Origin: an uncultured Anaeromyxobacter sp.
GTDB taxonomy: Bacteria > Myxococcota > Myxococcia > Myxococcales > Anaeromyxobacteraceae
DNA length: 64,000 nucleotides
Assembly: GCA_903855945.1 (NCBI GenBank)
Contig: CAIOAK010000015.1
Span: 1-64,000, forward strand
Direction: 5' to 3'
Made by a program: the position numbers and the translations under genes. Of this stretch, positions 32,988-42,596 are shown piece by piece. The notes under the pieces were generated by a model. It was not told the origin of the DNA, ran no database searches, and saw only the letters and a list, made by a program, of their open reading frames with translations. Each line of letters begins with the position of its first letter. The stretch's first letter is position 1.

Positions 32988-35900
32988 CTACTCCGCGGCG
33001 CCCACGTCGATGGGCAATGCCTGCGCCTCGTCCACCGCCCCCGCGAAGCGGGCGAAGCCGGGGTAGTCGCCCGGCTGGACCCGCGTGCGGAACAGCTCGA
33101 GCCGGTCCTGCCGGACGAGCCGTCCCCCCTCGAGCCGCTCGGTGCGCGCGTAGCTCCCCTGGGGAGCCGACAGCGCGACCGGTTCGCCCGGCCTCGGCGC
33201 CGCTCCAGGCGGCGGCGTGATCTCGATGCGGAGCGACGACCGGTCGCCGATCCCGACGAGGAGCGGGGACTCCCGGGTCGCGAGCGGCGCGTACCGGGCG
33301 CCCAGCCGGGCCGGGTACGGGACGTCGTCGATGACGAGCCGCCCTCCCGACGGACGGGCCAGGCCCGAGACCCGCGCCCGGTAGCGGATGACGAGCGGCG
33401 TGCCCACCTGCCGCTCCCCCTCGAAGCGGACCTCCTGGAGCTGCAGGGAGTGGAAGCTCCGGGAGAGCGCCTGCTCCATGGCACGGCGACGGCTCGTGTC
33501 GTCCACCGGCTCGAGGGCCGCCTTGGCGCCGGCCCCCTCGAAGCCCCGGTAGGTCTCGACCCCCTCGATGACCGCGTCTCCCGACGGGTCCACCTGGATG
33601 CGCAGGAGGACGTCGCTCCCCTCGGAGACCGGGAGGGCGGGCGTGCGCTCCCGGCGCAGCGACTCGCCCGGGCGCGGCAGGACGAGCACCTCGGCGTCGC
33701 GGGCGCCGGGCGGGAGTGCGCCGAAGGGAGCCCAGCGCGTGGACGGGTCGATCCAGTGGACCTTCCCGTCCAGCTCGGCCCGCACCACGGGCACCGAGTA
33801 GAGGTCGAGCCGCGGGAAGAGCCAGGGCTGCGGGTCCACGTAGAACGGACGGACGAGGGCCACGCGCGCCGGGATGCCGAGGGCGTCGAGGAGGGCCACG
33901 AGCAGCAGCAGCCGGCTGCCGCGACCGCGCGAGAGCACGTGGCTGGCCTGGTCGGTGAGCGGCCCGGTCCCGTCCACCCGCTCCATCACCGCCTGGTGGG
34001 CCGCGCGCAGGAGATCCTCCCCGGCGCGCGGCGGGGCGCCGGGCGGGTACCGGATCGAGCGGGCCAGCGCCGCGATCTCCCGCCCCGGACGTACACGGTC
34101 AGTGAATGCATCGGCGGCGGCGAGCGCCAGCCCGTCGATGCCCTCCCCCGACCCGGCCATGACCATGGGCACGTACTCGGAGATCCCGGGCGCGCCAGGC
34201 TCCGGCACCATCGCCTTCGCCTGCCTCGCCTCGGCGCGCATCACCTCGCGCGCGCCCTCCCGCCGCACCTCGGGCGGCGCCATCCTCCGGACGTCGAGCG
34301 TGAGCCGCCCCACCGGGGCCGCCACCGCATAGGTGGACAGGAAGAAGGGGAGGTCCTCGCCGCGGAAGAAGAAGGGATCGGAGATCCACCCGGGCGACGC
34401 CGGCTGGCGGGTCGAGTGGGAGCGAAGCCACTCCAGCTCCAGGTAGTCGCCCGGCTCGAGCCCGGCCGCCGAGATGCTCCGCTTGTCGCCCCCGTGGACC
34501 TCCGGCTCGAGGATCCGCCCGTCCCTCTTCCGGGTCTCCAGGCGGAGGAGGGTGGCGCCGGGGGGAAGCTCCACCTCACCCCACTTCTCGACCCCGCGCG
34601 CGTCGTGGACGTGGATGATCTGGTGGGTCCGCTCGACGGTGGTCCCGTCGGGCCAGGCCTCCACCGAGGCACCGTCGAGGACGAGCGAGGCCGCCGTCGT
34701 GACCGGGACCCTGGCCTCCTCGTAGGCGCGGATGACGTCCGACCCGTCGAGCGCCAGGTCGCCGAGCACCTCCCGCCCCTCCTCGAGCGCGAGCGCGCGC
34801 CGGAGCACGAGGTCGGCCCCGTCGAGGGTGAGGGCTCGCTCCCGCGCAGCGCGGGCGTCGGGGCCCCGGCCGCCGAGCTCCTGGAGCTCGCCCAGGCGAC
34901 GCTGGATCTGGCCGTCCACGGGCCAGAGCCGGGACAGGTCGGCGAGCTCGGCGGCCGCGGCATCGGTCCGGCCCTGGGCCACGAGCACCCGGGCGAGCGC
35001 CAGCCGCGCGTCGATCCGCGCCGGGGAGGCCCGGGCGACCGTGGTCCACGCAGCCGCGGCGCCGGCCAGGTCGCCCCGGATACGCCGGTGCTCGGCGACC
35101 CGCTCGAAGCCGCCCGGGCAACGGGCGAGCATCCGCACGGCTTCGTCTTCCAGCGCGATGGCGTCGCGCCGGACGGCCATCTCCGCCAGCGTGGCGGCGG
35201 CGGCGCAGTTGCCGGCCTCGGAGGCCCCGCGCACCAGGGCCTCGGCCGCCTCCGGATGGCTCCGCTCGACGAGCAGGCGGGCCCGGGCGAGGCGGGCCCG
35301 GGGGCGTGCGGCCACCTTCTCCGGAAGCTCCGCGAGCCGCTTCTCGGCGTCGTCGAGCCGCCCGCCGGCCATGGCCAGCTCGGCGAGGACGAGGCGCACG
35401 GCCGAGTCGCCCGGATCGAGGCGGGACGCCTCCTGCCACTCGGCCTCGGCCCGGGCGCGCGCGATCCGCTCCGCGAGCGTGGGATCGCCGGAGAGTGCGT
35501 CCCCGCGGGTGGACCGGACCGGTGCCGCGGCCGGCGCGAGACCCGTCGCCTCGTCCAGCAGGGAGAGGGAGGCCTGCCGGTCGTTCTCGAGGCGGTCGCG
35601 CGCCGCCACGAGCCGCGACAGGACCGGACCCGCCTCCGGCTCGAGCGCGTCGGCGAGCTCCCGCGCACCCAGGACCGGCCCGGGGAGCGGGGCGGGTTGC
35701 GCGGCCGGACCGGGGCTCGCGGCCGGGCGCCAGGCGGCGTCGGAGGGAGCGGCGTCCTCCCGGGCGAGCGCCAGCGCCAGGTTGGCCCGTCCGGCGCCGC
35801 GGGTGAGCTTCACGAGGACGCGGTGGGTGCCGGGGGCGAGATCGACCGGCACCACCTGCACGGCCGACGGCCACCCGGCCCAGGCCCGTCGCTCGGCCAC

Positions 35901-36650
35901 CGGCCGGCCGTCCACGAGGACGCGGGCGGAGGCGGTGCTTCCCACGGCGAGGAGGTAGCGACCTCCGCGCGAGAGCTCGGCGTCGGCGGCCACGTACCAG
36001 ACGTCGCCGGGGACCGACTCGCCGTCGAGCGAGATGGCACCGTCGGGCGCCGGCAGCACACGGGCCCTCGCCGGCGGCCATTCCCCCTGCTCCGGTGGGA
36101 AGGGGCGCTCCATGTCGAGGGCGTGGAAGGCGCCGAACGGGCCGGCGAGCGACCAGCCGTCGGCGACGCCGTTCTCCCGGCGGATGCGCTCCGACTCCCG
36201 CAGGTCCCCCCGGAGCTCGGCGATGGCGGCGCGCACCACCCTCGCCCGGTAGGCGCTCATCCCGGTGAGCCTCCCCGCGCCGAGCACGCCGGCGAGTGTG
36301 GCGTCCACGCGCTCCGCGATGGGGGGCATCCCGAGCGACAGCTCTCCGAGGCGGCGCAGCGCCACGAGCGAGAGCGGGTGGCGTGGGGCGGCCGCGACGA
36401 CGGCGAGCAGGGCGGACGCCTCCCCCTCGTCGTCGAGCGCGCGCTCCGCCAGCATGGCCTCTCCGAAGAGCGGCCAGGGGTCGGCTGGATTCCGCGCGGC
36501 GTCGGTGCGGAAGCGGGCTGCGGCCGCCACGGGGTCCCCCTTCTCGAGCCAGGCCTCGAATCCGGAGGGGGCGGCGGAAGCGGCGCGCGACGGGAGCGCG
36601 AGGGCCAGCGCGGCGAGGATCACCGGGAACGAGCGGAGGGCGCGGGTCAC
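32988..36650 (-). CDS. Large exported TPR/DUF3857/transglutaminase-fold protein, catalytic residues lost
   Basis: A 1220-residue exported protein (signal peptide to about residue 27). An N-terminal helical-repeat part contains a PA14-like strand set (ARVLVDGRPVAERRAW), then TPR-like repeats to about 640, a DUF3857 domain (about 650-830), and a transglutaminase-like core (about 860-1000). In the core the catalytic Cys is absent: GRGSRLLLLVALLDALGIP stands where the neighbour has GDCKDKASLMHALL. The His is also lost (DLYSVPVVRAE), while the Asp survives (VHWIDPSTR). So it is probably a pseudoenzyme. Its GTG start overlaps the stop of the active-looking paralogue by four bases. Palindrome copy 5 lies inside. 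Confidence 0.82.
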   Translation of the reverse strand: MTRALRSFPVILAALALALPSRAASAAPSGFEAWLEKGDPVAAAARFRTDAARNPADPWPLFGEAMLAERALDDEGEASALLAVVAAAPRHPLSLVALRRLGELSLGMPPIAERVDATLAGVLGAGRLTGMSAYRARVVRAAIAELRGDLRESERIRRENGVADGWSLAGPFGAFHALDMERPFPPEQGEWPPARARVLPAPDGAISLDGESVPGDVWYVAADAELSRGGRYLLAVGSTASARVLVDGRPVAERRAWAGWPSAVQVVPVDLAPGTHRVLVKLTRGAGRANLALALAREDAAPSDAAWRPAASPGPAAQPAPLPGPVLGARELADALEPEAGPVLSRLVAARDRLENDRQASLSLLDEATGLAPAAAPVRSTRGDALSGDPTLAERIARARAEAEWQEASRLDPGDSAVRLVLAELAMAGGRLDDAEKRLAELPEKVAARPRARLARARLLVERSHPEAAEALVRGASEAGNCAAAATLAEMAVRRDAIALEDEAVRMLARCPGGFERVAEHRRIRGDLAGAAAAWTTVARASPARIDARLALARVLVAQGRTDAAAAELADLSRLWPVDGQIQRRLGELQELGGRGPDARAARERALTLDGADLVLRRALALEEGREVLGDLALDGSDVIRAYEEARVPVTTAASLVLDGASVEAWPDGTTVERTHQIIHVHDARGVEKWGEVELPPGATLLRLETRKRDGRILEPEVHGGDKRSISAAGLEPGDYLELEWLRSHSTRQPASPGWISDPFFFRGEDLPFFLSTYAVAAPVGRLTLDVRRMAPPEVRREGAREVMRAEARQAKAMVPEPGAPGISEYVPMVMAGSGEGIDGLALAAADAFTDRVRPGREIAALARSIRYPPGAPPRAGEDLLRAAHQAVMERVDGTGPLTDQASHVLSRGRGSRLLLLVALLDALGIPARVALVRPFYVDPQPWLFPRLDLYSVPVVRAELDGKVHWIDPSTRWAPFGALPPGARDAEVLVLPRPGESLRRERTPALPVSEGSDVLLRIQVDPSGDAVIEGVETYRGFEGAGAKAALEPVDDTSRRRAMEQALSRSFHSLQLQEVRFEGERQVGTPLVIRYRARVSGLARPSGGRLVIDDVPYPARLGARYAPLATRESPLLVGIGDRSSLRIEITPPPGAAPRPGEPVALSAPQGSYARTERLEGGRLVRQDRLELFRTRVQPGDYPGFARFAGAVDEAQALPIDVGAAE
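34091..34107. repeat. Recurring 17-bp palindrome, copy 5 (one degenerate arm)
   Basis: GTACACG-gtc-AGTGAAT in the first transglutaminase-fold gene. The right arm is near-consensus, the left keeps only CAC. On the minus strand it reads TTC ACT GAC CGT GTA, with unusual ACT, CGT and GTA codons. It lies only 1.7 kb from copy 4. Confidence 0.45.
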
Positions 36651-39600
36651 GGCGTCCTCCCCTCGACCCGCACGAGGTGCACGCTCCGGAGCAAGGCCCG
36701 GTCGAGCCCCGCCAGGAAGTCGCGGAAGGCCGGATAGTCGGCGGCGGCGATGCGCCGGGTGGTCACGCGCAGGACCCCGGCGGCGCGGAGCTTCCCTCCC
36801 TCCATCTGGAGGGAGACGGACCAGTCACCGAAGGGACCCTCGCGCCGCTCGGGCGAAGGCAGCCCCGCCGGAACCATCCCGGCCGGCAACTCCCAGACGA
36901 AGGTGAAGCGCTGCTCGAAGGGGCTCGTGAGCACGAGATCGTAGCGGCGCTCGGCCAGGGCGGCGAAGCCCTCCATCCAGTTCTGTCCCTGGCCGAACGG
37001 GGCAAGCGCCAGGCCACCGCTCTCCGGACGGGCCACGCGGGGCGCCGACGCCCGGAAGGAGAGGGTCACGTCCTGCTCGATGCGGGAGAGGTCACCCGTC
37101 TCGACCGATTCCACCTTGAGTCCGGGCAGCGTCCGGGCGAATCCCCGCTCGAGCGCGGCGCGTCGGCCGCTCTCCGTACCGTAGGCCCGGCGGAACTCGG
37201 GCGCCTGCACACCGGACACGGACAGGGTCCCCGTCGCGCTGGCCGAACCGTCGGCGGAGAGGACGCCCCGGACCTCGGTCACGACCCGGTCGTCGCCCGC
37301 CACGGCCTCGGGGAGGAGGCCGAAGGTGGGCGGCCCGCCCGGATTCACCACGAGCACGGTTGCACCGCGGTCCTCGCTGGGCAGCTCCCGCGACCCGGAG
37401 CCGGTGGCGGTCCCGTCGAGCCAGAGGTCGAACTCGGGCACGTACAGGATGGCGTGGTTGAAGACGGCAAGCGACGCCGGGGCCGGCGGGAGGGCCCCGA
37501 GCCGGCGCATGCGGAGCAGCACGAGGCGCGAGTCGATTCCGGCCGCCTCGAGGAGCGCGTGCATCAGGCTCGCCTTGTCCTTGCAGTCCCCGAACCGGCG
37601 CAGCAGCACCTGCTCCACGTTGTAGGGCTTGTAGCCGTGGATGCCGAACTCGAGCCCCACGTAGCGGGTTCCGGTCACCACGTCGTCGTAGACCGCCTTC
37701 ACGATCTCGCGGCGGAGTGCCTTCTCGTCGAGGGAGGCGTTCTCGGGCCGGGCCCGCACGGCCGCCACGATCCGGGCCGACTCGGCGCGCACCCCCGGCC
37801 CGGGACGGATCTGCTCCCGCACGAGCCCCTCGTAGAAGCGGGCCACCTCGTCCCAGGACGCGTAGGTGGAGACGTGGACGGAGGCCGACGACTCGGCCTG
37901 GCCGGGCATCCCCGGCTCCGGCAGGATCCGGGGGAGGTCGGTCGCGGTCCAGCGGTACTCGCGGACGCCGCCGGGGAGGTCGCGCTCCTGGCGGGTGACC
38001 CCGGACAGGGCCGGGTCGCTCGAGTGGATCGGGCGCGACGCGGGCGCGAGGAGCACGTAGTCCATCCGCTCCTTCCGGGCCGTCTCGCTGAAGGGGACCA
38101 CCTCGCCGAAGTAGTCGGAGAGCAGGTTCTCGGAGGCCACGTCGTCCACCCGCCAGGCCAGCTCCAGGACGTCGCCGGGGGCGAGCGCCGGGACCACCAC
38201 CTGCCGCACGCGGGTGTCGTAGTAGAGCCGGTACCAGGGCTCGCTCGTGCTGCGATCCGCCTCCTGGTGGGTCTCCACCACCGACCCGTCCGGCTTCCAG
38301 ACCCGGGCCCGCTCCACGCGGATGTCCTGCCGGCCCGGGACGTAGGCGATCGGGTGCGCGCGGAGCGACTCGGTTCCACGCGGAGTGTAGGCCCGGGCCA
38401 CGACCTGGTACCAGGTGGAGGAGAGGCCGGAGGGGTGGACCTTCGTCACCTTGGTCTCCGACAGGATCGCCGCGTCCTCCTGGTCGCGGCGCGGCGGCGG
38501 GGTCCGGGCGATGGCGGCGGCGTCCACCCGGTAGGGAGCCTCGTACCGTTCCCGTGACGGCTCGAGCTGGCGGATCAGGTCCTTCAGCTGGGTGCTCTGC
38601 GGCTTGCGGTCGAGCGCAACTTGAAGGGCGGCGAGCGCCTCCCCCTGTCGCCCGTCCCGGAGCAGCTGCCGGCCGCGCCGCTCGTGCACCTCGGGCTCGT
38701 CCGGGGAGAGCCGGGCGGCGGCGAGGTAGTCGGCCTCGGCCATCTCGGACCGGCCGTTGGCGGCGAGGAGGTCGGCCCGGCGCAGCCGCAGGAACGGATC
38801 GCCGGGGCTCGCCCGCACCGCCTCGCCGAGCACGGCGAGTGCCTCGTCGAGGTCGCCGCGGCGCACGAGCAGCGAGACGAGCGCGGAGCGGGCCGGCGCG
38901 TCGTCGTGCCGGAGCGCGAGGAGCCGCCGGTACCCCTCGAGCGCCGCGTCCACCCGGTCGAGCTGTCGGTTCACCCGGGCGGCCAGCTCCACGGCGCCCG
39001 GCTGGTCCGGGAAATCGCGGAGCAGGGCGAGCAGGTCCACCTGGGCGCGGGAGGGATACCCGACCTGGTCCCAGGCCTGCGCCAGCCCCGCACGCGGGGG
39101 GGCCCAGCCCGGCCAGTCGGCGGCGAGCGGCTGGAGCTTCCGCACCGCCTCGTGCGGCCGCCCACGCCGGATCTCCTCCTCCGCGAGCGCGAGCCGGGCG
39201 AAGGGGTTTCCGGGCTCGGCGCGCAGGGCCGCCTCCAGCCTGTCGCGGCGCCGGTTGGAATCCTGGTCCTCGAGCCGCGCGGCGAGCAGCTGGGCGCGGG
39301 CGTCGCCCGGGAGCAGGTCGGCGGCCCGCCTCGCCTCGCGCGCGGCGGCGTGCTCGGAGAGGTCCTCCGGCAACTTCTCGCCCATCGCCACGGCGAGGTC
39401 CACGCGGGCCCTTCCCTCGGCGGCCCCCTTCGCCCCCTTCGCCCCCTTCGCCCCCTTCGCCCGCTCCGCCCGGCCTGCCAGAACCGACACGAGCGAGGGA
39501 ACGGGGACCGGCCGCGGCGCGGGGCCGGTGGCGAGCGGTGGGAGCGGCGGCATCTTCGCCGGGATGACCGCGAGGGGATCGCCGGAGGGGTCGGTGAGCC

Positions 39601-40375
39601 GGACAGCGACGGCCATCTCACCCTGGTCCTGCGCCAGCTTCACGAGGATGCGGTTCGGCCCCTTCCGCAGCGTGACCTCGACCGCGGCCTGGTCGAGCCG
39701 GGCCGGGTGGTACGTGGGGGACTCCAGCACCTTCGACCCGTTGACCCAGATACGGAAGGCGCCGCTCGCACCGATCCAGAGACGGGCTCTCCGTTCCCGG
39801 TCCAGCACGGGCACCGCCAGCGCGTAGACCACCGCCTCGTGCGCGGGCCGGATGGTGGTTCCGATGGTGACGACGCCGCTCCAGTCGAGCTCGGGGGGGA
39901 GCGAGCGCCATCCCACCTCCCGGACCTTGCCCGGGTAGCGGGCATCGAGGTCGAGCCGCTCCTCGGGAGGGTAGACCTTCTCGAATCCGGCGCGCCCCTC
40001 GTTGTCGAAGGGGCCCACGATCCACCATCCGTGCAGGAAGCCGAGCCGGCTCACCTCGGCCGCGGCCTGCTCGTCCTTCCCGAGCGCGCGCTCCACGCCC
40101 GAGAGGTGCCACCGGGCGAGCGAGCGGACCTCCGGGTGGGCCTTCGGGTCGTCGGCGACGGTGCGGTAGGCGGCGGCGACGGGGCGCAGGTCGACGACGG
40201 CGGGCTCGAGCTCGTGGAGGCGCACGAGCGGCGCGATCGCGGCCGGGTCGGCATGGAGCCGGCGCAACTCGGAGAGGCAGCGCTCCACCTCGGCGAGCGA
40301 CGGATCGCCCCTGGCCGTGCCGGCGGAGGGCGGCGCGGCGGCGAGCACCGCGAGCGAGAGGAGGAGGGCCTGCAT
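36647..40375 (-). CDS. Large exported TPR/DUF3857/transglutaminase protein, catalytic triad present
   Basis: A 1242-residue exported protein with a signal peptide (ALLLSLAVLAAAPPSAG). Residues about 200-250 form a PA14-like beta part (IWVNGSKVLE...RILVKLAQ). TPR-like repeats follow to about 640, then DUF3857 (about 650-830) and a transglutaminase core (about 890-1010). The core has Cys in RRFGDCKDKAS, His in VFNHAILY and Asp in LWLDGTA, a complete triad. Such proteins are usually periplasmic and may cleave or cross-link peptides; the substrate is unknown. Four KGA repeats lie near residue 310. First gene of a two-gene operon; GTG at 40381 is an alternative start. Confidence 0.82.
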   Translation of the reverse strand: MQALLLSLAVLAAAPPSAGTARGDPSLAEVERCLSELRRLHADPAAIAPLVRLHELEPAVVDLRPVAAAYRTVADDPKAHPEVRSLARWHLSGVERALGKDEQAAAEVSRLGFLHGWWIVGPFDNEGRAGFEKVYPPEERLDLDARYPGKVREVGWRSLPPELDWSGVVTIGTTIRPAHEAVVYALAVPVLDRERRARLWIGASGAFRIWVNGSKVLESPTYHPARLDQAAVEVTLRKGPNRILVKLAQDQGEMAVAVRLTDPSGDPLAVIPAKMPPLPPLATGPAPRPVPVPSLVSVLAGRAERAKGAKGAKGAKGAAEGRARVDLAVAMGEKLPEDLSEHAAAREARRAADLLPGDARAQLLAARLEDQDSNRRRDRLEAALRAEPGNPFARLALAEEEIRRGRPHEAVRKLQPLAADWPGWAPPRAGLAQAWDQVGYPSRAQVDLLALLRDFPDQPGAVELAARVNRQLDRVDAALEGYRRLLALRHDDAPARSALVSLLVRRGDLDEALAVLGEAVRASPGDPFLRLRRADLLAANGRSEMAEADYLAAARLSPDEPEVHERRGRQLLRDGRQGEALAALQVALDRKPQSTQLKDLIRQLEPSRERYEAPYRVDAAAIARTPPPRRDQEDAAILSETKVTKVHPSGLSSTWYQVVARAYTPRGTESLRAHPIAYVPGRQDIRVERARVWKPDGSVVETHQEADRSTSEPWYRLYYDTRVRQVVVPALAPGDVLELAWRVDDVASENLLSDYFGEVVPFSETARKERMDYVLLAPASRPIHSSDPALSGVTRQERDLPGGVREYRWTATDLPRILPEPGMPGQAESSASVHVSTYASWDEVARFYEGLVREQIRPGPGVRAESARIVAAVRARPENASLDEKALRREIVKAVYDDVVTGTRYVGLEFGIHGYKPYNVEQVLLRRFGDCKDKASLMHALLEAAGIDSRLVLLRMRRLGALPPAPASLAVFNHAILYVPEFDLWLDGTATGSGSRELPSEDRGATVLVVNPGGPPTFGLLPEAVAGDDRVVTEVRGVLSADGSASATGTLSVSGVQAPEFRRAYGTESGRRAALERGFARTLPGLKVESVETGDLSRIEQDVTLSFRASAPRVARPESGGLALAPFGQGQNWMEGFAALAERRYDLVLTSPFEQRFTFVWELPAGMVPAGLPSPERREGPFGDWSVSLQMEGGKLRAAGVLRVTTRRIAAADYPAFRDFLAGLDRALLRSVHLVRVEGRTP
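39423..39458. repeat. Four perfect 9-bp tandem repeats
   Basis: GCCCCCTTC is repeated four times without mismatch inside the second transglutaminase gene, encoding a Lys-Gly-Ala run on the minus strand. Unit length is a multiple of three, so slippage would change the linker length without a frameshift. Confidence 0.85.
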
Positions 40376-40416
40376 CGGCACGCGGGGAGTCTACCCCCGG
40401 AACGACCGTGGCGGCT

Positions 40417-41043
40417 TCATTCGGCGCGGGACAGGGCGGCCACGACGACGCGCCTCGCCCCGGCGTCCCGGAGCGCGCGGGTGGCGGCCTCGACGGTGGC
40501 TCCGGTGGTGACCACGTCGTCGACGAGGCAGATGTCGCGGCCGGCCACGGCGCGCGACGCGGCGAAGGCCCCGGCCACGTTCCGGGCCCGCGCCGCCCGG
40601 TCGCGACCCACCTGCGGCGGCGTCTCCCGCACGCGCCGGAGCGCCCCTCGCAGCAGGGGTTGGCGCGAGGCCCGTGCGACCGCCACCGCGAGGAGCATGG
40701 CCTGGTCGTAGGTGCGCTCGATGCGGCGACGACGACCGAGCGGGACCCAGACCACCGCCATGCCCTCCGGGACCGCGACGCGCCCGGCCATCCATCGCCC
40801 CAGGGGGCCGGCCACCTCGGCCCGTCCCCCGTACTTGAGGGCGTGGACGGCGTCGGCGATCGGCCCGCCGAAGAGGGACGCGGCCCCTACGCCGTCTCCC
40901 AGGTCGGGCGCGGGCTCGATGGCACCGTCGCAGGTGGAGCAGAAGGGGGAGGCGCGCGCCGGGGCCTCTCCGCACGCCGCGCACCGCGGGGGGAAGACGA
41001 GGTCGAGCAGGGCCTCGCCGATCTCCGAGAGCGCCCCCCTCAT
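40417..41043 (-). CDS. comF: ComF-family phosphoribosyltransferase-like protein
   Basis: A 208-residue cytoplasmic protein with an N-terminal zinc motif (CAAC ... CSTC) and a PRTase domain ending with the PRPP-binding loop ICLVDDVVTTGAT. ComF proteins support DNA uptake in competent bacteria and occur widely in others. The ATG lies two bases after the gpmI stop, so the two are coupled. Confidence 0.88.
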   Translation of the reverse strand: MRGALSEIGEALLDLVFPPRCAACGEAPARASPFCSTCDGAIEPAPDLGDGVGAASLFGGPIADAVHALKYGGRAEVAGPLGRWMAGRVAVPEGMAVVWVPLGRRRRIERTYDQAMLLAVAVARASRQPLLRGALRRVRETPPQVGRDRAARARNVAGAFAASRAVAGRDICLVDDVVTTGATVEAATRALRDAGARRVVVAALSRAE

Positions 41044-41045
41044 CT

Positions 41046-42596
41046 TCAGCGAACCAGCAGCCCGAGCCCCTTCATCTCCCGGGGCTGGGCGATCCCGAGC
41101 ACCTGGAGCGCGGTGGGGGCCACGTCGGCCAGGACGCCGTCCTGGCGGAGCTTCGCCCCGCGGAAGTCGGGGTCGGCGAGGATGAAGGGGACCGGTCCGA
41201 GCGTGTGGGCGGTGTGGGGCTCTCCCGTCAGCGGATCGACCATCATCTCGGCGTTGCCGTGGTCGGCCGTGATCATCATGGCCATCCCGGCCTCGCGGGC
41301 CGCCGCCCAGAGCCGCCCGATGCACTCGTCCACCACCTTCACCGCCGCCACGGCGGCCGAGAGGATGCCGGTGTGCCCGACCATGTCGGCGTTGGCGAAG
41401 TTCACCAGGATGAAGCCGTAGCGGCGCGAGCGGACGGCCTCCACCACCTTCTCGGTGACCTCCCGCGCGCTCATCTCCGGCTTCTCGTCGTAGGTCTTCA
41501 CGTCGCGGGGGCTCGGCACGAGGACGCGGTCCTCGCCGGGGAAGACCGTCTCCCGCCCGCCGTTGAAGAAGAAGGTGACGTGGGCGTACTTCTCGGTCTC
41601 GGCGCAGCGGAGCTGCTTCAGGCCGGCGCGGGAGACCATCTCGGGGAAGATCTCGTCGGGCTGGTCGGGGCCGAAGGCCACCGGCAGGCCGAAGGTCTCG
41701 TCGTACTGGGCCATGCAGGCGAAGGCCGACAGGCGCGGCCGGGCCGAGGCGTCGAAGTCCTTGAAGTCGGGCTGGGTGAAGGCGCGGGTGATCTCGCGGG
41801 CCCGGTCGGCGCGGAAGTTGAAGAAGACGAGCGCGTCGCCGTCCCGGATGCGGGCCACCGGCTCCCCTCCCCCGTTCACCACCACGGTGGGCATCACGAA
41901 CTCGTCGGTCTCGCCGCGGGCGTAGGCCTGCTCCACCGCGTTCACGCCGGAGGTGGCTTTCACTCCTAGTGAACTAACCATGGCGTCGAAGGCGGCCTGG
42001 ACCCGGTCCCAGCGCTTGTCGCGATCCATGGCCCAGAAGCGCCCCATCACCGTGGCCACCTTCCCGTAGCCCTTCTCCTTCATGCGGTTCTCGAGCGACT
42101 GGACGTAGCCGAGCCCGCTCTTCGGCGGGGTGTCGCGCCCGTCGAGGAAGGCGTGGACGTAGGCCTTCGCCACCCCCTCGCGCCGGGCCAGCTCGAGGAG
42201 CGCGTGCAGGTGCTCCTCCTGGCTGTGGACGCCGCCGTCGGAGCAGAGCCCCATGAAGTGGACCGCGCCTCCGGCGGCCTTGGCCTTGCGCACCGTCTCG
42301 AGGAGCGCCGGGATCTGGAAGAAGGACCCGTCCTCGATGGAGCGGTTGATGCGGACCAGGTCCTGGTAGACGATGCGCCCCGCCCCGAGGTTGGTGTGCC
42401 CAACCTCCGAGTTGCCCATCTGCCCCTCGGGAAGTCCGACGGCGAGACCGGAGGTCCGCAGCGCGGTCGACGGGTACTCCTTCACCAGCGCGTCCATGTT
42501 GGGCGTTCCGGCGATGGCGATGGCATTGTTCTCGCGCTCGACGCGGATGCCCCAGCCGTCGAGGACGACGAGGAGAACGGGCTTCACCTTGGGCAC
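41046..42596 (-). CDS. gpmI: Phosphoglycerate mutase, 2,3-bisphosphoglycerate-independent
   Basis: This 516-residue metalloenzyme interconverts 3- and 2-phosphoglycerate. VLDGWG supplies a metal Asp. The phosphoserine site is Ser63 in MGNSEVGH. Further metal ligands lie in HLHALLELA..., DGRDTPPKS, NFANADMVGHTG and TADHGNAE. Length is typical. The GTG at 42596 has a CGAGG upstream. Palindrome copy 6 lies inside, read as AGT TCA CTA GGA GTG AAA, a striking run of scarce codons. Confidence 0.96.
   Translation of the reverse strand: MPKVKPVLLVVLDGWGIRVERENNAIAIAGTPNMDALVKEYPSTALRTSGLAVGLPEGQMGNSEVGHTNLGAGRIVYQDLVRINRSIEDGSFFQIPALLETVRKAKAAGGAVHFMGLCSDGGVHSQEEHLHALLELARREGVAKAYVHAFLDGRDTPPKSGLGYVQSLENRMKEKGYGKVATVMGRFWAMDRDKRWDRVQAAFDAMVSSLGVKATSGVNAVEQAYARGETDEFVMPTVVVNGGGEPVARIRDGDALVFFNFRADRAREITRAFTQPDFKDFDASARPRLSAFACMAQYDETFGLPVAFGPDQPDEIFPEMVSRAGLKQLRCAETEKYAHVTFFFNGGRETVFPGEDRVLVPSPRDVKTYDEKPEMSAREVTEKVVEAVRSRRYGFILVNFANADMVGHTGILSAAVAAVKVVDECIGRLWAAAREAGMAMMITADHGNAEMMVDPLTGEPHTAHTLGPVPFILADPDFRGAKLRQDGVLADVAPTALQVLGIAQPREMKGLGLLVR
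41958..41974. repeat. Recurring 17-bp palindrome, copy 6
   Basis: TTTCACT-cct-AGTGAAC lies in gpmI. Arms match at six of seven positions. The minus-strand reading is GTT AGT TCA CTA GGA GTG AAA, seven codons in a row of which nearly all are A- or T-ending. Confidence 0.75.

Follow-up and report, generated by a model that had tools for sequence, protein, structure and literature searches.

An intact and a nucleophile-less giant transglutaminase-like paralogue encoded in tandem in Anaeromyxobacter: candidate subunits of one envelope enzyme

Results

Two overlapping genes encode exported giant paralogues

The window analysed here, a stretch of 64,000 nucleotides from an uncultured Anaeromyxobacter sp., carries two genes on its minus strand that we call A and B (Table 1). 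An earlier note made from the letters alone had described them as overlapping genes for exported paralogues of more than 1200 residues. This description proved correct: the products are 1242 and 1220 aa long, the reading frames share a GTGA, and the proteins align over ∼1150 residues at 25% identity (BLASTP E 1e-18) with a common domain layout. The start of gene A is taken as the ATG at 40375, and a further GTG lies upstream at 40381. ComF (40417-41325) and GpmI (41046-42596) are the neighbours in the window. These genes and HemW are housekeeping genes and the neighbourhood differs between phyla, so that gene context gives no clue to function.

Table 1. Positions of the gene pair and its parts in the window
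Feature	Position	Strand	Remarks
Gene A, exported 1242-aa protein: TPR, DUF3857, intact transglutaminase-like domain, DUF3858-like C-terminus	36647..40375	-	
A: N-terminal region with invariant WWIVGPFDNEG motif	39557..40042	-	no Pfam match
A: TPR array	38522..39364	-	Pfam
A: DUF3857 domain (PF12969)	37928..38431	-	94.4 bits, cut-off 24.6
A: catalytic Cys931 codon, GDCKDK	37583..37585	-	invariant in A relatives
A: catalytic His974 codon, FNHAI	37454..37456	-	
A: catalytic Asp987 codon, WLDGT	37415..37417	-	
A: DUF3858-like C-terminal domain	36710..36955	-	17.7 bits, below cut-off 27; profile aligns with C-terminal part of 3KD4
GTGA overlap of 4 bases, A stop/B start	36647..36650	-	translational coupling signature
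Gene B, exported 1220-aa pseudo-transglutaminase paralogue	32988..36650	-	start GTG at 36650
B: TPR array	34791..35453	-	Pfam
B: DUF3857-like domain	34212..34649	-	24.1 bits, just below cut-off 24.6
B: GRGSR replacing GDCKDK, no Cys	33912..33926	-	Gly and basic residue conserved among B homologues

Protein A belongs to the DUF3857 family (PF12969) by its Pfam gathering score and possesses a catalytically competent transglutaminase core, with a Transglut_core (PF01841) match of 30.8 bits against a cut-off of 23 and an invariant triad. The triad, Cys931-His974-Asp987, lies in the GDCKDK, FNHAI and WLDGT motifs, just where the earlier reading had put an intact Cys-His-Asp site. DUF3858 (PF12970) stayed below the Pfam cut-off in A (17.7 bits versus 27). 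Of the parts previously claimed, the TPR, DUF3857 and transglutaminase segments of A were recovered by Pfam, but the PA14-like assignment found no support, as neither protein has such a match at E<=1. The N-terminal region of A is instead a conserved stretch marked by the invariant WWIVGPFDNEG motif. Similarly, neither A nor B has a Pfam-level match to the BTLCP (LapG/HvyA) family. A short KGA repeat (AKGAKGAKGAKGAA) is present in A at 39419-39460 on the minus strand, between the N-terminal region and the TPRs.

Gene B has lost the nucleophile and kept the scaffold

Pfam finds no transglutaminase domain in B, and the DUF3857 identity of its borderline match is also backed by profile and fold matches to PDB 3KD4. 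The equivalent sites in B read SRGRGSRLLLL, LYSVPVV and HWIDPS, so that Cys and His are gone and Asp is kept, as had been proposed. Among relatives the proposed pattern holds in full for Cys, which is absent from all B homologues, and the state of the other two positions is lineage-specific: His is mostly lost, being retained in some homologues, and Asp is kept in most. Loss of Cys is thus the constant feature. The former Cys position is occupied by R, E, Q, N or S, and by A, K, G or T in Planctomycetota. The Gly that follows it is invariant, a basic residue stands at +3 in 77 of the 78 Myxococcota proteins, and B as a family conserves GxGxR and usually the Asp. An alignment of B relatives revealed no conserved Cys anywhere in the domain.

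AlphaFold models of both proteins, built on five-sequence alignments, also led to 3KD4 as the best match. For A (pLDDT 79.4) the match had E 9.5e-31 and TM 0.68/0.81; for the C-terminal half of B (mean pLDDT 71.5, with low confidence flanking the former catalytic helix) it had E 4.3e-23 and TM 0.53/0.58. The same structure was the only significant PDB hit of the A profile (25 relatives, E 7.6e-24) and of the B profile (29 relatives, E 1.1e-11). Profile and fold comparison alike show no correctly placed Cys in B, which was the structural check suggested for the dead-copy claim.

3KD4 is BDI_1141 of Parabacteroides distasonis (DUF3857/DUF3858, PF12969, PF12970) and has the three-part scaffold of A and B. 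It lacks the N-terminal region and TPR array of ∼600 residues that both window proteins carry in addition. In the A profile alignment it reads GTPLEI against the GDCKDK of A. The only solved member of the family is therefore itself a dead copy, and its record bears the label 'putative protease'.

Comparison with L006, the closest relative, gave dN/dS values of 0.257 (A) and 0.252 (B); in the segment of B containing the former active site the value was 0.204. B is under purifying selection and is not decaying.

The pair is retained across Myxococcota

The A profile matched 162 of 195 Myxococcota genomes and the B profile 168 of 195; strong B-type matches alone account for ∼149 genomes, the weaker ones being cross-hits to A or very divergent B proteins. 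In families f1-f5, f10, f11 and f17, A lies directly upstream of B wherever the contig is long enough, and in f13, f14 and f25 the tandem is kept with a very divergent B. No A adjoins B in the Myxococcaceae-like families f6-f9. Nearly all Myxococcaceae-like genomes nevertheless have both genes, tens of kb apart (43 kb in G118, 114 kb in G060). In these families A has often remained next to ComF or GpmI, its neighbours in the window, and this was also noted at L136, L137 and L139, from which B has moved away; the ComF/GpmI surroundings of A are a housekeeping neighbourhood kept across the order. Both genes are absent together from three genomes that are 92-95% complete (G041, G047 and G110). 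Two apparent cases of a missing B (G037 and G044) were set aside, as in both the contig ends after the first part of B, and no high-quality genome of the order was found with A and without B.

A lipobox is present in 38 of 54 B proteins and 2 of 34 A proteins from Myxococcota. The B protein of the window has a plain signal peptide, and the lipoprotein anchor is likewise absent from the B proteins of Anaeromyxobacter genus-g1 and from most of those of Planctomycetota. Membrane anchoring as a general role for B was accordingly rejected, since it holds for most Myxococcota but fails in Planctomycetota.

Two further observations concern other transglutaminase-like genes. In a Polyangiaceae genome (L164, G195:C94) a single active relative has the reversed layout, with DUF3857-transglutaminase preceding the TPR array. 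The genome of the window itself carries two more genes with stronger transglutaminase cores ∼8 kb apart (L002 and L003, G000:C41:46156-54713).

One active and one dead copy recur in other phyla

Matches occurred in 96 of 199 Planctomycetota genomes, many as pairs ∼3.8 kb apart, and all 20 of the 20 fetched pairs consist of an intact A and a B lacking Cys. In four genomes (G342, G371, G258 and G327) one active and one dead giant occupy separate loci, and among the apparently unpaired genes a few shorter Planctomycetota types are active singletons. The six giant pairs from Acidobacteriota show the same A-intact/B-dead pattern. In the giants of Myxococcota and Planctomycetota, Cys-His-Asp is present in 63/63 A rows and Cys in 0/100 giant B rows, counted as distinct loci after removal of repeated reference rows and the L006/L046 duplicate, although such loci are not independent events. 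By set, the triad was found in 41/41 and 28/28 A rows, and the B rows devoid of Cys comprise 77 distinct ones and 23 more, plus the six Acidobacteriota giants. Tandem giant loci run A then B, and the genes overlap in 44 of 63 and lie within 30 nt in 53 of 63.

Short tandem copies of ∼650 residues are found in Bacteroidota and Acidobacteriota and were selected by adjacency of DUF3857 hits, regardless of active-site state. Exactly one copy has Cys-His-Asp/Glu in 38 of the 41 multi-copy loci of these phyla (the six giants included); three related loci have zero intact copies and none has two. Five Bacteroidota loci (L187, L195, L222, L223 and L224) are triplets of one active and two dead DUF3857 copies. 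At L207, L208 and L213 of Acidobacteriota, tandem DUF3857 pairs have no Cys in either copy and no active one at the locus; their sites read GVGRDK and, where readable, GDVKDK, and the second copy extends to ∼1020 aa.

The earlier note had asked whether the pair is conserved with the dead copy always dead, and this is so for the giants of Myxococcota, Planctomycetota and the six Acidobacteriota loci, where B never has the Cys. Relatives with two intact tandem copies, which would have spoken against it, were looked for and numbered 0/63 among giant tandem loci and 0/41 among multi-copy loci. The active-site pattern of A and B is beyond chance and recurs in every comparable locus examined.

Dead copies probably arose more than once

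In a tree of 49 rows comprising the Myxococcota, Planctomycetota and Acidobacteriota giants and the short types, giant A forms one clade (100/99) and giant B another (100/100), each spanning three phyla, so the pair is either ancient or has been transmitted as a unit. A single origin of all dead copies was rejected by the AU test (p-AU 1e-4), with the caveat of long branches. Rejection of a single dead clade implies at least three losses of Cys, which would fall in giant B, in the short type of Bacteroidota and Acidobacteriota and in a third Acidobacteriota type, an assignment calling for caution given the long branches. Throughout the three phyla of the giants, B has a long open frame in almost every genome.

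Discussion

The reading we favour, and consider probable, is that a single exported enzyme complex is built from both proteins, with A as its putative catalytic subunit and B as the non-catalytic one. The suggestion of an enzyme/pseudoenzyme pair acting as a unit gains backing from purifying selection on B, from co-retention of the genes after unlinking and from the repeated origin of dead partners. Such a complex would be periplasmic or located at the cell surface. A would be a Cys-His-Asp enzyme of the papain fold. Most likely it is an envelope peptidase or amidase that cleaves peptide or amide bonds in a substrate located there, with cross-linking as the alternative chemistry. B would be a dedicated pseudoenzyme, its translation coupled with that of A, that retains the DUF3857/transglutaminase/DUF3858 scaffold minus the nucleophile. 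The constant features of the pair are joint inheritance, an unvarying gene order, translational coupling and a nucleophile missing from an otherwise preserved scaffold. B most likely serves as an obligate subunit without catalysis of its own, and probably makes up half of the assembly that binds the substrate, or else positions or switches A. In most Myxococcota, where the lipobox is common in B and rare in A, B would also be the lipoprotein that tethers the pair to the membrane.

Several observations sit less easily with this reading. Active singletons (L163, L226 and L236-L238) from elsewhere in the superfamily indicate that the active fold is sometimes partner-free, L207, L208 and L213 have two dead copies with the active one absent from the locus, the anchor is missing from some groups of B proteins, and the model of B is only moderately confident (pLDDT 71.5).

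The nearest working precedent for A and B is offered by the M16B peptidases. In M16B heterodimers such as MPP alpha/beta, SPH2681/SPH2682 and TTHA1264/TTHA1265, one subunit is catalytic and both are needed (PMC12731061). As in A and B, the subunits are paralogues, the catalytic residues lie in one of them, and the genes are often neighbours (PMC12731061); A and B, too, are a paralogous pair with one dead member, conserved together. M16B enzymes differ in being zinc peptidases of an unrelated fold, and in that their complex is proven whereas that of A and B is predicted. Other periplasmic papain-fold enzymes with a Cys-His-Asp site and envelope targets are LapG and HvyA of the BTLCP family (PMC4241560), which are small (272 residues for HvyA), lack the TPR/DUF3857 layout, have no described dead paralogue and belong to another family. 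A dead transglutaminase domain with an envelope role is known from RloB, in which it is fused to seven TM helices and faces the periplasm, and whose operon also encodes an envelope protease (PMC12239564). Unlike B, RloB is membrane-embedded and has another domain layout as described, and its operon partner is a retropepsin rather than an active paralogue.

B could instead be a neofunctionalised stand-alone binder of peptide, peptidoglycan or polysaccharide that works in the same pathway as A and forms no complex with it. In polymorphic toxins, inactive transglutaminase domains have been proposed to act as peptide-binding anchors (PMC3482391). The TPR and N-terminal regions might recruit partners by themselves, and the genes are unlinked in Myxococcaceae and some Planctomycetota. 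Overlap in a fixed order in three phyla, joint presence or absence and repeated, independent pairing with an active paralogue nevertheless exceed what a shared pathway would need, and we regard this explanation as unlikely.

Dead paralogues frequently regulate active ones, and B might serve as an inhibitor or gatekeeper dedicated to A, keeping it switched off until some signal comes. Loss of RloB in Pseudomonas rescues defects of protease-less mutants (PMC12239564), which shows that envelope proteolysis can involve a dead transglutaminase. No sequence feature marks B as inhibitory, however, and the occasional loss of a lone inhibitor would be expected, yet the searches met no high-quality genome of the order that has A and lacks B; an inhibitor seems quite improbable.

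Catalysis by B through different residues is more doubtful still and in our view very improbable: active sites are known to have migrated in papain-like families (PMC10318531) and the conservation of GxGxR, usually with Asp, could be taken in its favour, but B has no conserved Cys, the residue at its former Cys site is variable (R, E, Q, N, S, A or K) and the His is mostly gone. Finally, the idea that B is a decaying duplicate devoid of function, to which its faster divergence between distant relatives (27% identity versus 31% for A) might be thought to point, is refuted by selection and conservation, namely a dN/dS of 0.252, on a par with that of A, and a long open frame nearly everywhere in three phyla.

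The earlier note knew of no described function for such pairs, and we likewise found none in the open-access literature, nor any description of active/dead DUF3857 pairing. DUF3857 turned up in one paper of that literature, as a neighbour annotation (beside lolA), no functional study was found, and nothing relevant turned up there on transglutaminases in Anaeromyxobacter or Myxococcus. A broader generalisation, to which we give about even chances, is that proteins of the DUF3857-transglutaminase type generally work as two-subunit enzymes of the envelope, composed of one active and at least one dead paralogue. Dead partners would then have originated three times or more, the arrangement would be in use in at least four phyla, and 3KD4 would be a dead subunit taken in error for a protease.

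The genes are widespread: most of the Myxococcota sampled have them, as do many members of the Planctomycetota, Acidobacteriota and Bacteroidota. An active copy with a dead twin provides a concrete and testable model, that of a heteromeric envelope enzyme. The pairing argues for co-expression in experiments and corrects how the family's single solved structure has been read. Inactivation that recurred independently next to active paralogues would furthermore be a strong natural test of why pseudoenzymes persist. The conservation of active and dead partners across phyla thus points to an unstudied family of enzymes that may work as two-part complexes.
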